A DNA stretch of 64,000 nucleotides, taken from Spirochaeta cellobiosiphila DSM 17781 (lineage in GTDB: Bacteria; Spirochaetota; Spirochaetia; DSM-17781). The position numbers and the translations under genes are program-made. The DNA lies in contig NZ_KE384555.1 of assembly GCF_000426705.1 (NCBI RefSeq), forward strand, positions 282,362 through 346,361, in the 5' to 3' direction. Shown piece by piece: positions 4,266 to 11,241 of this stretch. The notes below the pieces were generated by a model. It did no database searches. It was not told where the DNA came from and worked only from the letters and a program-made list of their open reading frames with translations. Position 1 is the stretch's first letter; each line of letters opens with the position of its first letter.

Positions 4266-5171
4266 TTATTCCCAGATAACCTTTCCCATATCGCTAATGT
4301 CATAGCCCCCTAGTCCTGAGATTTCTTCCTGAAATTCTGGATTGTTCAAGATGGCCAGGATGGCCTGATAGGGGGAAGTATCTTTATGTTCTTTGAAAAA
4401 GATCATATCGTAGGATTCAGTCTGGAGGGGAATAAAGTCAATACCAGCGACCAGGGCAGCACCCTTTTCACTACCGGGAGCTGTATCAACCATTCCCCGA
4501 CAGACCATACTGGCCGCTGCTGAATGGGAGGTCACTATACGATCATATCCTCTGATATCTGACTTGGGAATTTGCAAGATTCTGAGCTTTTCATCAAGAA
4601 GCACCCTAGTACCACTTCCTTTTTCCCTATTCACCATAGTGACTCCTTTCTGTTGTAGGCTTACCCAGTCCGTAATATTTTTGGGATTACCTTTTTTGAC
4701 ATACAGGCCCTGGATTCTTTTAACAAGATGCACAATACAGACATCCATTCCTGGAAGCATTTTCTGAACATAAGGTAGATTATAAGTATTAGAATGTCCT
4801 TCCCATAAATGTGCTGTAGCAACATTGACCTCATCATGATAGAGAGAAAACAAACCATTATAGCTGCCCTTATAGGACCTAACAGCCCTAATTGAGGGAG
4901 TATAAGCTTCTAAGCAGCGGGTTAGGATATCCAGGATTATATCTTGCCCGCAGATAATAATATCTCCTGAACCGGCTGGAGTCCTTATCTGTTGATCTAT
5001 GACGGGGGGCTGATTCTGTTTTAAAGCTTCAACGGCAGCCTTATCAATACGGATCTTCCTTCCCACCTTAAAAGACTGTAATTCTCCCCTTTTTATCATC
5101 TCATAGACGGTATTCTTGGCTATTTTTAAGTATTCTGCTACTTCTTTTGGGGTTAAAGACATATCACTCAT
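4266..5171 (-). CDS. Excisionase-type HTH / periplasmic-binding-fold regulator of the mod operon
   Basis: A 301-residue protein with an N-terminal helix-turn-helix of the excisionase/MerR-like (HTH_17) type at residues 5-52 (LTPKEVAEYLKIAKNTVYEMI) and a C-terminal domain (about 70-301) of the PBP-like COG1910 family, related to molybdate/tungstate binding proteins. The motif VNREKGSGTRVLLDE is typical of that domain. It has no signal peptide or membrane segment, so it acts in the cytoplasm. It is the last gene of modABC and overlaps modC by 8 bp. The inferred role is a molybdate-sensing regulator that replaces ModE. Confidence 0.9.
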   Translation of the reverse strand: MSDMSLTPKEVAEYLKIAKNTVYEMIKRGELQSFKVGRKIRIDKAAVEALKQNQPPVIDQQIRTPAGSGDIIICGQDIILDILTRCLEAYTPSIRAVRSYKGSYNGLFSLYHDEVNVATAHLWEGHSNTYNLPYVQKMLPGMDVCIVHLVKRIQGLYVKKGNPKNITDWVSLQQKGVTMVNREKGSGTRVLLDEKLRILQIPKSDIRGYDRIVTSHSAAASMVCRGMVDTAPGSEKGAALVAGIDFIPLQTESYDMIFFKEHKDTSPYQAILAILNNPEFQEEISGLGGYDISDMGKVIWE

Positions 5172-6228
5172 TTTCAGTCCTTAAGGAATGGGCTTTGAAT
5201 AAACAATAAACCTCATTACCGAGAGCTAAATTCATGTTTATGATAGCCGTTTGAGTTACTTCAGCGGCTAAGGTTACACCTGCATCAATAAAACAATAGA
5301 CACCATCACCTTTCTCAACGAATCTTGTAATGACACCTTTCAACTGATTTTGCATAGAAATACCCTGAATAAATTGGATAGAAAGGGCAATCTCTCTTGG
5401 GTGTATGACAACAGAGAATTCCTTTTTGTCCACAAAGGGAGTTTTTATCATTACTGAAGGGGCGTCCTTCAGAAGACAGTTATAAACACCATCCTTAGCT
5501 TCCTCTGTCAAGGCGACCAAATTAAGGACATTCACTAACTCATGCCCTTCTTGAGAAAATCCCCCCTGGCCAAAGAGTTCATAGACAGAGCCATGCCCTA
5601 CACACTGTCCCTTATTTATGAGATAAACATGATTAGTCAATCTTTGAATATCTGGCAAATCATGACTGATGACTAAAAGCGGGATATTAAGCTCCCTTTG
5701 TAATCGCCTTAGATAAGCAAGAATCACATGACGTAATGTATTATCAACAGCATTAAAAGGTTCATCTAATAGTAATAATTCAGGAGAGGTAAGAAGAGCT
5801 CTTCCTATGGCCACTCTTTGTTGTTCTCCCCCTGAGATCTCTACTGGCATAGACTTAAGCAAGGGACCAAGATCTAATAATTCGACTACTTTATTCAAAG
5901 ATACCCTGTTAGTGGTCGTATATTTTTGACCAAAAGTTAGATTCTTCTCTATATTCATATGGGGAAACAGTAACTTCTCTTGAAAGACAACGCCCATCCG
6001 TCGCTGATAGGGAGGGACAAAAATCTTTTTCTCAACATCCACTAAGGGACGATCGTTCAAATAAATATGCCCCGTTTGAGGATGGTCAAGACCAGCCAGA
6101 AGACGGAAGAAGGTAGTCTTGCCTGCCCCTGAAGGACCATAAATTCCCAGAACATCTTCCTCAAACTGTCCTTCCAAGTGAAGAAGAAAATCTCTTCTAG
6201 GTAGTTCCACACTAAAATCAAGACTCAT
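5164..6228 (-). CDS. modC: Molybdate ABC transporter ATP-binding protein
   Basis: A 354-residue ATPase of the molybdate importer. Walker A is GPSGAGKTT at residues 31-39, the signature ISGGEQQRV is near residue 134, and Walker B ends in LLLDEPFNAVD. The C-terminal 110 residues form a TOBE-like domain (GVITRFVEKGDGVYCFIDAG), which in ModC binds oxyanion and links activity to cytoplasmic molybdate. Length is that of classic ModC. It overlaps modB by 11 bp and the regulator gene by 8 bp, so all are translationally coupled. Confidence 0.95.
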   Translation of the reverse strand: MSLDFSVELPRRDFLLHLEGQFEEDVLGIYGPSGAGKTTFFRLLAGLDHPQTGHIYLNDRPLVDVEKKIFVPPYQRRMGVVFQEKLLFPHMNIEKNLTFGQKYTTTNRVSLNKVVELLDLGPLLKSMPVEISGGEQQRVAIGRALLTSPELLLLDEPFNAVDNTLRHVILAYLRRLQRELNIPLLVISHDLPDIQRLTNHVYLINKGQCVGHGSVYELFGQGGFSQEGHELVNVLNLVALTEEAKDGVYNCLLKDAPSVMIKTPFVDKKEFSVVIHPREIALSIQFIQGISMQNQLKGVITRFVEKGDGVYCFIDAGVTLAAEVTQTAIINMNLALGNEVYCLFKAHSLRTENE

Positions 6229-6916
6229 AAATACCAGCTCCTCGATTCTTTAATTGCTTATTAAGATAGGAAGATAAAAACAGGGAGCAAAAAGAAATCC
6301 CAATAGATATAAGAACTAATATGGCCGCATCCGAGTCTCGCCCAGGAATCTGAAGCAACGCATAGACAGCTAGAGGAATGGTACGTGTTTTCCCTTCAAT
6401 ATTCCCTGCGAAGGTCATGGTGGCTCCAAATTCACCTAAACTTCGAGCAAAACCAAGAATCATACCATTAACGATACCCGGTAGAACCAAAGGTAAGGTT
6501 ATCCGAAAGAAGACCTGCCATCTATTGGCACCTAAAGTTAGAGCCGCCCTTTCTAATTTTGGATCGATCATATCCATGGAGATACGGATACTTCTTGTTA
6601 TGAGAGGAAAGGAAACCACCATAGAAGCGATCACAGCAGCCACAGAAGTAAAAGCAATTCTTATATGGAATATCTCAAAAAGGATGGCCCCAATAAAACC
6701 TTTTTTCCCAAGAATGAGCAGAAGTAAATACCCCGTGGTTACAGGGGGCATAACCAGAGGCAGATTAATAAATCCATCAAGTAAAGTCTTTCCCTTAAAG
6801 TTCCATCTAGCCATGATATAAACCACGGCCAGAGCGAAGGGGAGATTGAACACAGTAGATAAGATTCCCACCTTAATAGACAACAATAAAGCAGAAAGGA
6901 CATGGGATACATTCAT
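6218..6916 (-). CDS. modB: Molybdate ABC transporter permease
   Basis: A 232-residue inner-membrane permease with five to six hydrophobic helices, normal for ModB. The binding-protein-dependent transport motif that docks on the ATPase is seen as RAALTLGANRWQVFFRITLP near residue 143 (EAA loop), followed by GFARSLGEFGATMTFAGN, a ModB hallmark. It lies 12 bp after modA and overlaps modC. Together with ModA and ModC it imports molybdate or tungstate for molybdopterin enzymes, none of which are encoded in this window. Confidence 0.95.
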   Translation of the reverse strand: MNVSHVLSALLLSIKVGILSTVFNLPFALAVVYIMARWNFKGKTLLDGFINLPLVMPPVTTGYLLLLILGKKGFIGAILFEIFHIRIAFTSVAAVIASMVVSFPLITRSIRISMDMIDPKLERAALTLGANRWQVFFRITLPLVLPGIVNGMILGFARSLGEFGATMTFAGNIEGKTRTIPLAVYALLQIPGRDSDAAILVLISIGISFCSLFLSSYLNKQLKNRGAGIYES

Positions 6917-6928
6917 AAGCGTACCAGA

Positions 6929-7714
6929 CTACTTTGAGAAACCATACTTGGCATACACAGCACTAGCTGCTTCTGATTCCATTAGAAATGTATAGAAGCC
7001 CTTCGCCGCTTCTGAACGATCCTTTAAATAACCACAAAAGTATGTCACAGGGGTATGGGAATCTTCAGGAAAGTACCCGACGATCTTAACATCTTCTGAT
7101 TTTTTAGCATCCGTTTCATAAACAATGCCAAAATCAGCTTCCCCCAATTCGACAACACGTAAGGCAGCACGTACATCCGCTCCCGGGAGGATTCGATCTT
7201 TTACCTGTGTGTACCAGTTGTAGTTAGTGAGAGCCTCCAGGGCATATTTACCAGCAGGGACATGTTCTGGATCACCCATGGACAAGTAGCCAGTAAATAA
7301 GGAAGGAAAGTCAGTACCCTTTTCCAGAGAAACTTCTGAGACCTCAGAATTCTCTGGAGCAATAAGGACTAGACGATTTTTGACAAAAGAGTCGCTTTCA
7401 GCCATAACATCAAGACTCAAAGCATAGTCCATCCATTTTTTAGAAGCAGAAATGTAAACATCAACTTCAGCGCCGTTTTCCATTTGTTTTGCTAATGTCC
7501 CACTGGATGCAGGATTTGATTTGATTTCGATACCAGTCTTTTCCTGATATAACACAGCCAGTTCTTCAATAATGTCCGTCGTACTAGCCGCATTAAACAC
7601 TATAATAGATTTGGTCTGTGTCTCTGTTCTGGCTTCTTTTGAGCCACCGGCAAATACAGAAAAACAGGCCAAAAACATTATAGTAACCAGGACTTCCTTT
7701 TGTTTTTTGTACAT
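6929..7714 (-). CDS. modA: Molybdate-binding periplasmic protein
   Basis: A 261-residue substrate-binding protein of the ModA family. Family elements include FNAASTTDIIEELA near the start of the mature chain, the SSGTLAKQMENGAEVDVYISA segment, PEHVPAGKYALEAL, and GEADFGIVYETDA. I place the start at the ATG at 7714 rather than the GTG nine bases earlier because GAGGAG lies eight bases before it. The signal peptide ends either at FLAC (possible lipobox, Cys 17) or after VFA (signal peptidase I), giving a mature end GGSKEA common in spirochaetal binding proteins. First gene of the mod operon. Confidence 0.93.
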   Translation of the reverse strand: MYKKQKEVLVTIMFLACFSVFAGGSKEARTETQTKSIIVFNAASTTDIIEELAVLYQEKTGIEIKSNPASSGTLAKQMENGAEVDVYISASKKWMDYALSLDVMAESDSFVKNRLVLIAPENSEVSEVSLEKGTDFPSLFTGYLSMGDPEHVPAGKYALEALTNYNWYTQVKDRILPGADVRAALRVVELGEADFGIVYETDAKKSEDVKIVGYFPEDSHTPVTYFCGYLKDRSEAAKGFYTFLMESEAASAVYAKYGFSK

Positions 7715-7833
7715 AGTAACCACTCCTCAAATTAGTATGTCCAATAAGCTACAATAACTATGCCAAACTGTTTTTTTACTTCAAAATCAAGGGAAATAAC
7801 CAATAACCCCCTCTTTTAGACGTGATATAACAT

Positions 7834-7987: not shown

Positions 7988-9424
7988 TTAACATTCAGGA
8001 GTACGAACAGATACATTCACAGCAAGACCACCTAAAGAAGTCTCTTTGTATTTCGTATTCATATCCTTGGCTGTCTCCCACATAGATTTAATAACACTAT
8101 CCAAACTCACAATGGCTTTGGAAGGATCCTTGCTTATGGCCATATGCGCAGCCGTTATGGCTTTAACAGCTCCCATACTATTCCGTTCAATACAAGGGAT
8201 CTGAACGAGTCCTCCAATGGGATCACAAGTAAGCCCCAAATGATGTTCCATTGCAATTTCGGCAGCCATTAAAGATTGACGGGGACTGCCTCCCATTCCC
8301 TCTGTAAGGGCGGCGGCGGCCATAGCTGAGGAAACTCCTATCTCAGCTTGACACCCTCCCATGGCAGCTGAAATAGTGGCGGAATCTTTAAATATTCCCC
8401 CCACAACTCCCGCAACAAGAAGGAAATCATTGATCTCTTTGTTACTGACTTTTAAGCCGGAAAAGGCTATATAATATAATAATACAGCAGGAATAACCCC
8501 TGAAGATCCATTTGTGGGTGAAGTAACTATGCGACCAAAAGAAGCATTTTCCTCATTAACAGCCATAGCAAAAGCACTAATTAGCTTGAGAACCTGATCA
8601 AAACTTTTAGGAGCCTTTTTGATTTGATTAATCCAACCTTCAACAGATTGATCGCACTCTTGGCATCCAATAATAGGTTGCACCATTGATCTGGCATGTC
8701 TGACAACACCCAATGGACCGGGCAGCTTTCCTACTTTTGTGCATCCCTGGAAAACAGAATCAATCATCACCGACCATATATTCTCCAGTTCAGAGTCTAA
8801 TTGAGGATATCTGCTAGCCTCATTGGCCCGGGCGATTTCAGCAATCGAAAATCCTGTCACGTCACAATGGGCCAGAACATCCAAACCAGACTTTATGGGA
8901 TAGGGAACGCTGACAACATCATCATGGGGAAGCTCCCCCTCTTGAACAACAAAGCCACCTCCTATGGAATAATAGGTTTGGGTATTAATGGTATTGTGAT
9001 CCTTGTCATAAGCAGTGAAGATCATCCCATTAGGATGGTAAGGAAGACTCTGACTCTTGAGAAGAGCTATGTCATTATTCAAATCGAAGTCTATATTTTT
9101 TACGGCTCCCAGATGAAGTTGCTTCCCTATTTGAATCTCCTGGGGTACCCTTTGAACGTCATCCACATTAACAGTAACAGGATCTGCGTTGACCAGCCCC
9201 ATAAGGACAGCAATATCCGTTCCATGGCCTAAACCAGTAAGGGCAAGAGATCCATAAAGGTCAACTTGAAGAGATTCCACTTCCTCTATCTGATCATTTA
9301 TCTTTAAATCATTCTGGAATCTCTGAGCGGCACGCCAAGGTCCCAAAGTATGAGAACTAGAGGGTCCAATGCCTATCTTAAAGATTTCCAGAACACTAGC
9401 GATTGTGTCATTCTGTATGTTCAT
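7988..9424 (-). CDS. sdaA: L-serine dehydratase, iron-sulfur dependent, single chain
   Basis: Deaminates L-serine to pyruvate and ammonia in the cytoplasm using an oxygen-sensitive [4Fe-4S] cluster. At 478 residues it is the single-polypeptide form in which the beta domain (residues 1-150, with [20 protein letters not shown]) is joined to the alpha domain. The alpha domain has [19 protein letters not shown] and the cluster-ligand cysteines in [16 protein letters not shown] and IPCIERN. ATG start. The NlpC/P60-like gene lies 31 bp upstream on the same strand and may be co-transcribed. Confidence 0.96.
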
Positions 9425-9455: not shown

Positions 9456-10304
9456 CTATAGAATCATCACCTTTGGATGAAAAAAGGTTCCATATGAGGT
9501 TAGTGAAGGAAGAGAAAGAAAATCATTTTCCTTGGGATCTAGACTATTGATGCCCACCCCTCCCAAAGGACCAGAAGCATGAAGGACATGGTTATTGCCC
9601 AAATAGAGGGCGACATAACCAGAATAAAAGATCAGATCAGCAGGCTTTAACTCATCTCGGGAAACAGGAACAAAGGGGTATTTAAACTCGGCATCTCTAT
9701 AAATAATAGAACCACTTAGTAAATACACCAGGGAACAGAGCCCTGAGCCATCCATTCCCTGGAGAGAACGCCCACCCTGACGATACTGAACCCCTTTAAA
9801 CTCTAAGGCTTTATCTACAATTTGTTTTCGCTTTTCATCTTCCGCCATCGGCCTTGTGAGCTCTGATAGTTGCTTTATATGATCTGTGCGAATCCAGCCA
9901 GAACCACCTGTTAAAAGTTGAACCTCCAGCCACCCTTCTTTCTTCTCACCATTTAATAAGATAAAAGAACTGGCAGGAAGACATTCTATAAGGGGACTAT
10001 CATAATGAGGTTCCCTAAGGACATCTCCATAACTAGAGAGAACCATAGCCAGGTTTTCCGTTTCATCCTGAGTACACGGGATAATATCCTTTGACCGAAT
10101 CCACCCGGGATAACCATAGTAAGTTCTAAGCCAAAGCCATTCTCCATGATCTTCCAACAGGTACAAAGGAGACCCCATACAAACCTGATCTACTCTTGCA
10201 GCGTTTTCTTTAGCTTCTGAAAATAAATCAGCTAAAGGGACAGAAACAATATAATCAGCAAGGGACCATAAACGGGAGTCATTAATCTGTTCAAACTCTA
10301 TCAT
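9456..10304 (-). CDS. SH3 / NlpC-P60-like protein with degenerate active site
   Basis: A 282-residue protein resembling gamma-D-glutamyl-diamino acid endopeptidases such as YkfC: two bacterial SH3-like segments (about residues 20-75 and 88-150; each ends with GWIRS/GWIRT) and a C-terminal NlpC/P60 domain (160-282). The usual DCSG nucleophile motif reads DGSG, with Gly 186 (codon GGC) in place of Cys. The catalytic His of the HVGIYLG motif reads Tyr 230 in YVALYLG. The third residue, His 242 in LHASG, remains. No signal peptide is seen, so it is probably cytoplasmic like YkfC. It is likely inactive as a peptidase and may bind muropeptides. Cys 190 is four residues from the normal place and is unlikely to substitute. 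Confidence 0.85.
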   Translation of the reverse strand: MIEFEQINDSRLWSLADYIVSVPLADLFSEAKENAARVDQVCMGSPLYLLEDHGEWLWLRTYYGYPGWIRSKDIIPCTQDETENLAMVLSSYGDVLREPHYDSPLIECLPASSFILLNGEKKEGWLEVQLLTGGSGWIRTDHIKQLSELTRPMAEDEKRKQIVDKALEFKGVQYRQGGRSLQGMDGSGLCSLVYLLSGSIIYRDAEFKYPFVPVSRDELKPADLIFYSGYVALYLGNNHVLHASGPLGGVGINSLDPKENDFLSLPSLTSYGTFFHPKVMIL

Positions 10305-10392: not shown

Positions 10393-11241
10393 CTATATTT
10401 TAGGAAAATCTCTTACCATCTCCCATTGATTGATATAATTATCTAAATTTAATTCCTGAAAAAGCTTATCCATATAAGAATTGGCCTCAACATTACTGAT
10501 TGTGAATTCTTCTCCATTACACAAATCAGAAATACGTTTTAAGAGTGTCTGTACAACAGAAATAGAGGGGTAATCAGGAGATACACCTAGTTGAAGCACT
10601 CTCTTATTAACTTTATTAATAATAAAATAGCCTGCAACCTGATTGTCTATCTTAAGATATTGAAAGAGGAACAAGTCCTTTCTTGTTTCAAAGGTATCAA
10701 AGCTATTCTGCCAGGTAGGTACATAGCTGCAGAACTCTTCCGTATTAAAAGAGGAAAGGCCCTCTTCATTACTCACAAAATCACCAGTTATCGAGCAAGG
10801 TTCAATATTCCTTGTTTTATAGATTCTTAAAAACCTTGTCCTTTTAAATCCCTTCTTCTCGTATAATCTTTGTGCGGGAATATTATGTTCCAGAACTTCC
10901 AAATAAAACCTGTCAATTGGCGAAGATTGAACATTAAGAATCAATTGGTCCAGTAGCTTTGATCCAATATGTCTTTTTTGCCAGGAAGGAATAACCCCAG
11001 TAGCAATATCATAAATGCAGGACTGTCCATTAATAGTTCTCATTCCTATTAAACAAAAACCAGCTAGAACTCCCTCATCAATACACCCTATAGAATGTTG
11101 TGGAGAGTAGTTCATTGTCTCTAACATTATAGAGAAATCCTCCAGGGACAGTTGTATTTTAACTTCATACTGACTAAACGCTTCCCTAAAAGCATTCCAA
11201 ATAACAGATACTTCAATGTCTGCTAAATTATTAAATTCCAT
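10393..11241 (-). CDS. GNAT-family N-acetyltransferase
   Basis: The N-terminal 145 residues form a GNAT fold: the acetyl-CoA pyrophosphate loop is seen in the stretch from IATGVIPSWQ to RHIGSKLLDQL (residues 79-100), and the C-terminal motif NIPAQRLYEKKGFKRT at 120-135. Residues 150-282 probably make a second, degenerate GNAT-like half (KIDNQVAGYFIINK, LQLGVSPDYPS), as in two-domain family members. The substrate is unknown. It follows the VOC gene by 10 bp and is the last gene of a five-gene minus-strand run. Confidence 0.85.
   Translation of the reverse strand: MEFNNLADIEVSVIWNAFREAFSQYEVKIQLSLEDFSIMLETMNYSPQHSIGCIDEGVLAGFCLIGMRTINGQSCIYDIATGVIPSWQKRHIGSKLLDQLILNVQSSPIDRFYLEVLEHNIPAQRLYEKKGFKRTRFLRIYKTRNIEPCSITGDFVSNEEGLSSFNTEEFCSYVPTWQNSFDTFETRKDLFLFQYLKIDNQVAGYFIINKVNKRVLQLGVSPDYPSISVVQTLLKRISDLCNGEEFTISNVEANSYMDKLFQELNLDNYINQWEMVRDFPKI

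Follow-up and report, generated by a model that had tools for sequence, protein, structure and literature searches.

A YkfC-type NlpC/P60 protein of Spirochaeta cellobiosiphila in which the catalytic cysteine and histidine are replaced

Here, a gene of Spirochaeta cellobiosiphila DSM 17781 (P0001; 9456..10304, minus strand) is identified as encoding a 282-residue YkfC-type protein without the Cys/His dyad, an assignment made from its frame and translation, Pfam matches and best solved relatives. The window, i.e. the whole stretch of DNA that was analysed, is 64,000 nucleotides long. Judged from its sequence, P0001 is very likely a catalytically dead enzyme. That it is a cytoplasmic YkfC-type protein of this kind, most likely binding a wall peptide or related ligand without hydrolysing it, is a reading with about an even chance of being right, and slow decay of an orphan gene is its main rival.

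The catalytic triad of Bacillus cereus YkfC is Cys238-His291-His303, according to part of the structural report (PMC2954226). Motif 1 of P0001 reads GMDGSGL, with Gly186 (codon GGC; 9747..9749, minus strand) in place of the catalytic Cys, and motif 2 reads SGYVALY, with Tyr230 (TAT; 9615..9617, minus strand) in place of the catalytic His, while the third triad residue, His242 (CAT; 9579..9581, minus strand), is kept. The corresponding columns are C in 29/29, H in 29/29 and H in 28/29 of the aligned YkfC-type relatives, which were chosen from 59 full-length hits among 90 loci; when the count was repeated on all 90 loci, the catalytic Cys and His were present in each of the 91 NlpC/P60 domains. 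The initial annotation of this DNA had read both replacements and the surviving His from the letters alone, and the alignment and codons bear it out on all three. It did not include a third change, the replacement of an invariant pocket residue, Trp228 of B. cereus YkfC, by Gln176 (CAG; 9777..9779, minus strand). This column is W in all 29 aligned relatives and across the 90 loci holds 77 W, 8 Y, 4 F, 1 L and 1 H but never Gln. Conserved positions near the His motif are also unusual, namely Ala222 (Gly in 28/29 relatives) and Tyr227 (Phe in 27/29). Loss of catalysis is well supported, since both the nucleophile and the general base are gone and Chlamydia YkfC carrying Cys172Ala no longer functions in E. 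coli (PMC9928106, in part).

Across the host genome and other genomes of its class and phylum, both columns were legible in 78 distinct NlpC/P60 domains (90 rows less 11 duplicates and one with a gap), of which 75 carry Cys and His and only P0001 (G/Y) has both columns changed. The remaining two NlpC/P60 proteins of the host keep Cys and His and appear to be exported. Single changes of the catalytic Cys were seen in the second NlpC/P60 domain of a tandem frame (L104, G288:C39; Ala, with His kept) and in a domain from the same class (L033, G140:C268; Asp, with His kept).

The rest of the protein is that of a YkfC-type enzyme. Pfam places an SH3b1 (SH3_16) domain, which includes Tyr65, at residues 27-74 (10083..10226, minus strand; 41.4 bits) and an NlpC/P60 domain (NLPC_P60) at residues 171-256 (9537..9794, minus strand; 44.5 bits), both over cut-off, the latter also being identified by structural overlays. 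The SH3b-SH3b-NlpC/P60 architecture is that of the gamma-D-glutamyl-diamino-acid endopeptidase YkfC, and among solved structures the best sequence matches are to dipeptidyl-peptidase VI (3pvq and 3npf), over residues 19-261. The AlphaFold model, built on alignment A3 (25 rows), has a mean pLDDT of 87.4 and a pTM of 0.86, and it overlays solved YkfC-type enzymes from end to end (Z 25-28), for example 3pvq_A with Z 27.7 and an rmsd of 2.4 over 259 residues. The overlay on YkfC that the initial annotation proposed gave a full-length match to the B. cereus enzyme (3h41; Z 25.1, rmsd 3.1, 253 residues). Pfam, the model and the overlays thus agree on SH3b domains preceding NlpC/P60 within a full-length YkfC fold.

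Most of the substrate pocket is also preserved. In B. cereus YkfC, Tyr118, Tyr226, Asp237, Ser239, Asp256 and Ser257 contact or shape the dipeptide site (PMC2954226, in part). This numbering was mapped onto P0001 by motif and spacing, with Glu83 and Thr84 left unmapped, and the commonest residue among the 29 relatives is found at 8/9 mapped substrate-site positions: Tyr65, Tyr174, Gly177, Asp185, Ser187, Arg203, Asp204 and Ala205 are kept and the Trp alone is lost. Tyr65 lies in a column that is Tyr in 28/29 relatives and, by motif and column, we infer that it is the counterpart of the substrate-binding Tyr118. The YkfC paper defines the subfamily by the pair Asp256 and Tyr118 (PMC2954226, in part), and the alignment gives P0001 the same pair as Asp204 and Tyr65, the latter through this inferred match. 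The Trp228 of the S1/S2 site, replaced here by Gln176 and W in every aligned relative, lines both subsites, so the old ligand may not fit. The suggestion of the initial annotation that P0001 binds muropeptides therefore stands in part, with 8/9 mapped pocket positions in its favour and the lost S1/S2 Trp against it; binding of a muropeptide-like ligand is a tentative prediction from sequence, somewhat short of an even chance. For a role in sensing, which it also raised, and for any connection with serine dehydratase, no support was found beyond the 31-bp gap between the genes.

In the reading preferred here, P0001 descends from an enzyme that cleaved the gamma-D-Glu-diamino-acid bond of wall peptides whose N-terminal L-Ala was free. 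On the lineage of P0001, Gly took the place of the nucleophilic Cys, Tyr that of the His acting as base and Gln that of the pocket Trp. The fold, the order of SH3b1 and NlpC/P60 and the greater part of the pocket for L-Ala-gamma-D-Glu persisted. Today the protein would most likely bind such a peptide, or a ligand related to it, without hydrolysing it, in buffering or signalling, and retention of P0001 as a muropeptide-binding protein is plausible on these features.

The alternative that survives best is that the recycling pathway has gone, leaving a YkfC enzyme without use that drifts with its frame still unbroken; such decay is a substantial possibility, though held at less than even odds. 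In the 96% complete draft of the host genome, Peptidase_S66 (LdcA, LD-carboxypeptidase) has no match, the sole MR_MLE_C match reads as enolase instead of dipeptide epimerase, and nothing scores over cut-off for Mpl, so that the muropeptide recycling pathway, which supplies the usual partners of YkfC, looks absent from the host. That LdcA, dipeptide epimerase and Mpl are not seen fits a gene made redundant, as do the unusually many departures of P0001 from conserved columns: it differs at 7/20 columns conserved at 90% or above, tying for the most with L099 (7/24). In the first tree its end branch, of 2.17 changes per column, is longer than any other, which relaxed constraint would also produce, and no full-length relative appears among the matches listed from other genomes of the class.

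Against such decay stands the condition of the gene itself. The frame runs from ATG to TAG on the minus strand over 282 codons without an internal stop, as the initial annotation had described, and a Shine-Dalgarno-like GAGG lies upstream of the ATG. Synonymous codon usage is ordinary (rank 29 of 57 ORFs in the window). In a neutral simulation that started at the present sequence and allowed substitutions only, indels being left out, the frame stayed free of stops with a probability of 0.021-0.035 given changes in three of the eight invariant codons, and of 0.08-0.10 given changes in two; the resulting 2-4% for the three changes observed, with indels uncounted, speaks against drift. A confident full-length predicted fold and the keeping of most pocket residues do likewise. 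The earlier description of P0001 as retained is therefore moderately supported by its intact frame, ordinary codon usage, SD-like GAGG, confident fold and low no-stop chance, and continued selection is, on balance, somewhat probable. The identity of the lost residues adds nothing significant: the chance that three changed columns out of eight invariant ones include both catalytic ones is about 0.11 (6/56, counted by hand), and the idea that these residues were statistically singled out was dropped.

The open stretch between flanking stops is only 283 codons, which leaves no room for an added upstream signal peptide, and P0001 is accordingly predicted, from frame length, to be cytoplasmic. Upstream, 88 bp before its start, lies a GNAT acetyltransferase gene (10393..11241, minus strand; Pfam Acetyltransf_1). 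Downstream, 31 bp after its stop, is the gene for a single-chain iron-sulfur L-serine dehydratase (sda_mono; 7988..9424, minus strand), recognised by TIGR00720 at 550 bits and by Pfam SDH_alpha/SDH_beta, in agreement with the neighbour named by the initial annotation. A terminator-like hairpin (7966-7941) follows the dehydratase gene, and an Rfam search of the whole window gave no match.

The loss of the catalytic residues is derived and occurred on the branch of P0001 itself, because its sister pair is intact. These sisters, L132 and L133, come from rumen clostridial metagenome bins, have intact active sites and join P0001 with support of 95/95 in the tree of 30 rows and 97/94 in that of 31 rows. 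Their genes have malic enzyme on one side and a radical-SAM/UPF0004 gene on the other, beyond which L132 carries mutS and mutL. Closer relatives were also sought. A scan of genome contigs with P0001 as the single query gave no relative, and in a search of 394 genomes of the class, the host included, none of the matches listed elsewhere reaches before model position 132. Among the matches listed from phylum searches (2 x 392 genomes), a protein of genome G412 is the only one from another genome to span SH3b and NlpC/P60, and two other rows (G478 and G440) cover the SH3b part alone. Neither a close orthologue nor an orthologue with the same substitutions was found among the matches listed from the class and phylum genomes. 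The initial annotation had held that orthologues retaining Cys and His would point to recent decay or a sequencing error; homologues do retain them, but they are only about 22-30% identical and belong to other lineages, and since none is a close orthologue they cannot separate old retention from later decay.

It is very unlikely that P0001 remains active through a rearranged site in which, for instance, Ser187 or Cys190, the latter a helical turn further along, works with His242. Cys190 does lie four residues past Gly186 and His242 is kept, but the column at +4 is small and mostly hydrophobic in relatives (mostly V/T/A/I), the catalytic base is lost and such an arrangement is seen in no relative. 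Cys190 was rejected as a moved nucleophile on the composition of this column and the missing base. Least probable is that a sequencing or assembly error altered an intact gene: the genome is a draft of 29 contigs and Gly186 and Tyr230 are each one base from the expected codons (TGC for Cys and CAT for His), but separate substitutions, with no indel, strike three invariant sites on a long contig of 506 kb, and the CAG of Gln176 is two bases from the TGG of Trp, so a recent point error was rejected.

Non-catalytic NlpC/P60 proteins are already known. In RipD of Mycobacterium tuberculosis (Rv1566c; 4jxb and 4lj1) the triad has become Ala-Ser-Glu and the protein is reported to be non-catalytic and to bind peptidoglycan (PMC12067865, in part). 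P0001 resembles it in keeping the NlpC/P60 fold with nucleophile and base replaced, and the model overlays 4jxb_A with Z 15.2 and an rmsd of 1.9 over the 111 residues of this domain. It is not a RipD, scoring 17.4 bits with NCBIfam NF033743, whose cut-off is 215. Of the two, only P0001 has SH3b domains ahead of NlpC/P60 and a YkfC ancestry, whereas RipD carries C-terminal pentapeptide repeats (PMC12067865, in part). With YkfC and dipeptidyl-peptidase VI (3h41, 3pvq, 3npf and 4r0k) it shares the SH3b-SH3b-NlpC/P60 architecture and fold and conserved residues of the pocket, among them the Tyr/Asp pair indicative of a free N-terminal L-Ala, and like B. subtilis YkfC it has no signal peptide (PMC2954226, in part). 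It differs from YkfC in the replaced catalytic Cys, His and pocket Trp, and in adjoining L-serine dehydratase instead of dipeptide epimerase. Because the defining catalytic residues fail (Gly186 and Tyr230 for the Cys and His of the subfamily), P0001 is classed not as a YkfC peptidase but as an NlpC/P60 protein that descends from YkfC and is non-catalytic. The literature searched on NlpC/P60 pseudoenzymes gave no cytoplasmic dead form derived from YkfC, and no dead case of YkfC type was found in the part of PMC10318531 consulted.

If it is retained and does bind, P0001 would represent a recycling enzyme turned into a pseudoenzyme that binds muropeptides in the cytoplasm. The NlpC/P60 fold would then have a second route to a receptor besides that of RipD, and the sensing of wall turnover would become directly testable in a bacterium seemingly without the usual recycling genes. 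If the gene is instead decaying, the case is one of ordinary enzyme loss.

The G412 protein, L215 (L215:1529-3271 on G412:C245), is a second dead YkfC-like protein, from the same phylum as the host but a different class. As in P0001, both SH3_16 and NLPC_P60 score over cut-off, the DCSG motif has become DGSG and the catalytic His is missing. It is more degenerate, with Gly at both His places, so that all three triad residues are lost, and with the pocket Tyr and Trp gone; it also has a signal-peptide-like start and a long C-terminal extension, unlike P0001. No full-length orthologue besides itself was found in 198 genomes near and including G412. The tree does not join L215 with P0001, although the AU test does not reject their grouping (p-AU 0.083) and the branches are long. 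A catalytic loss common to both by descent was set aside, P0001 being placed with the intact L132/L133 (97/94) and the joint clade standing at p-AU 0.083; YkfC catalysis has probably been lost at least twice in the phylum. A bolder proposal is that dead YkfC proteins arose repeatedly in the phylum, as P0001 and L215, and act as muropeptide receptors, the P0001 receptor being cytoplasmic, possibly with a ligand preference shifted by the Trp to Gln change, and perhaps linking the supply of wall peptides to the neighbouring L-serine dehydratase gene. This is an unlikely extension of the binding reading.

Elsewhere in the window, a molybdate transport cluster (modA-modB-modC; 4266-7723) includes a regulator that combines HTH_17 with PBP_like and overlaps modC with its frame. 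Among the relatives, a dipeptide epimerase gene lies near the YkfC-type genes of L091, L092, L094, L096 and L098. Haloarchaea, which are without peptidoglycan, account for the intact YkfC-type genes at L092 (Natrialba magadii plasmid pNMAG01), L091, L097, L098 and L135. At L092 a diaminopimelate decarboxylase and a D-aminoacylase are found nearby, besides the epimerase, and the haloarchaeal YkfC/epimerase neighbourhood looks like a muropeptide-scavenging cluster.
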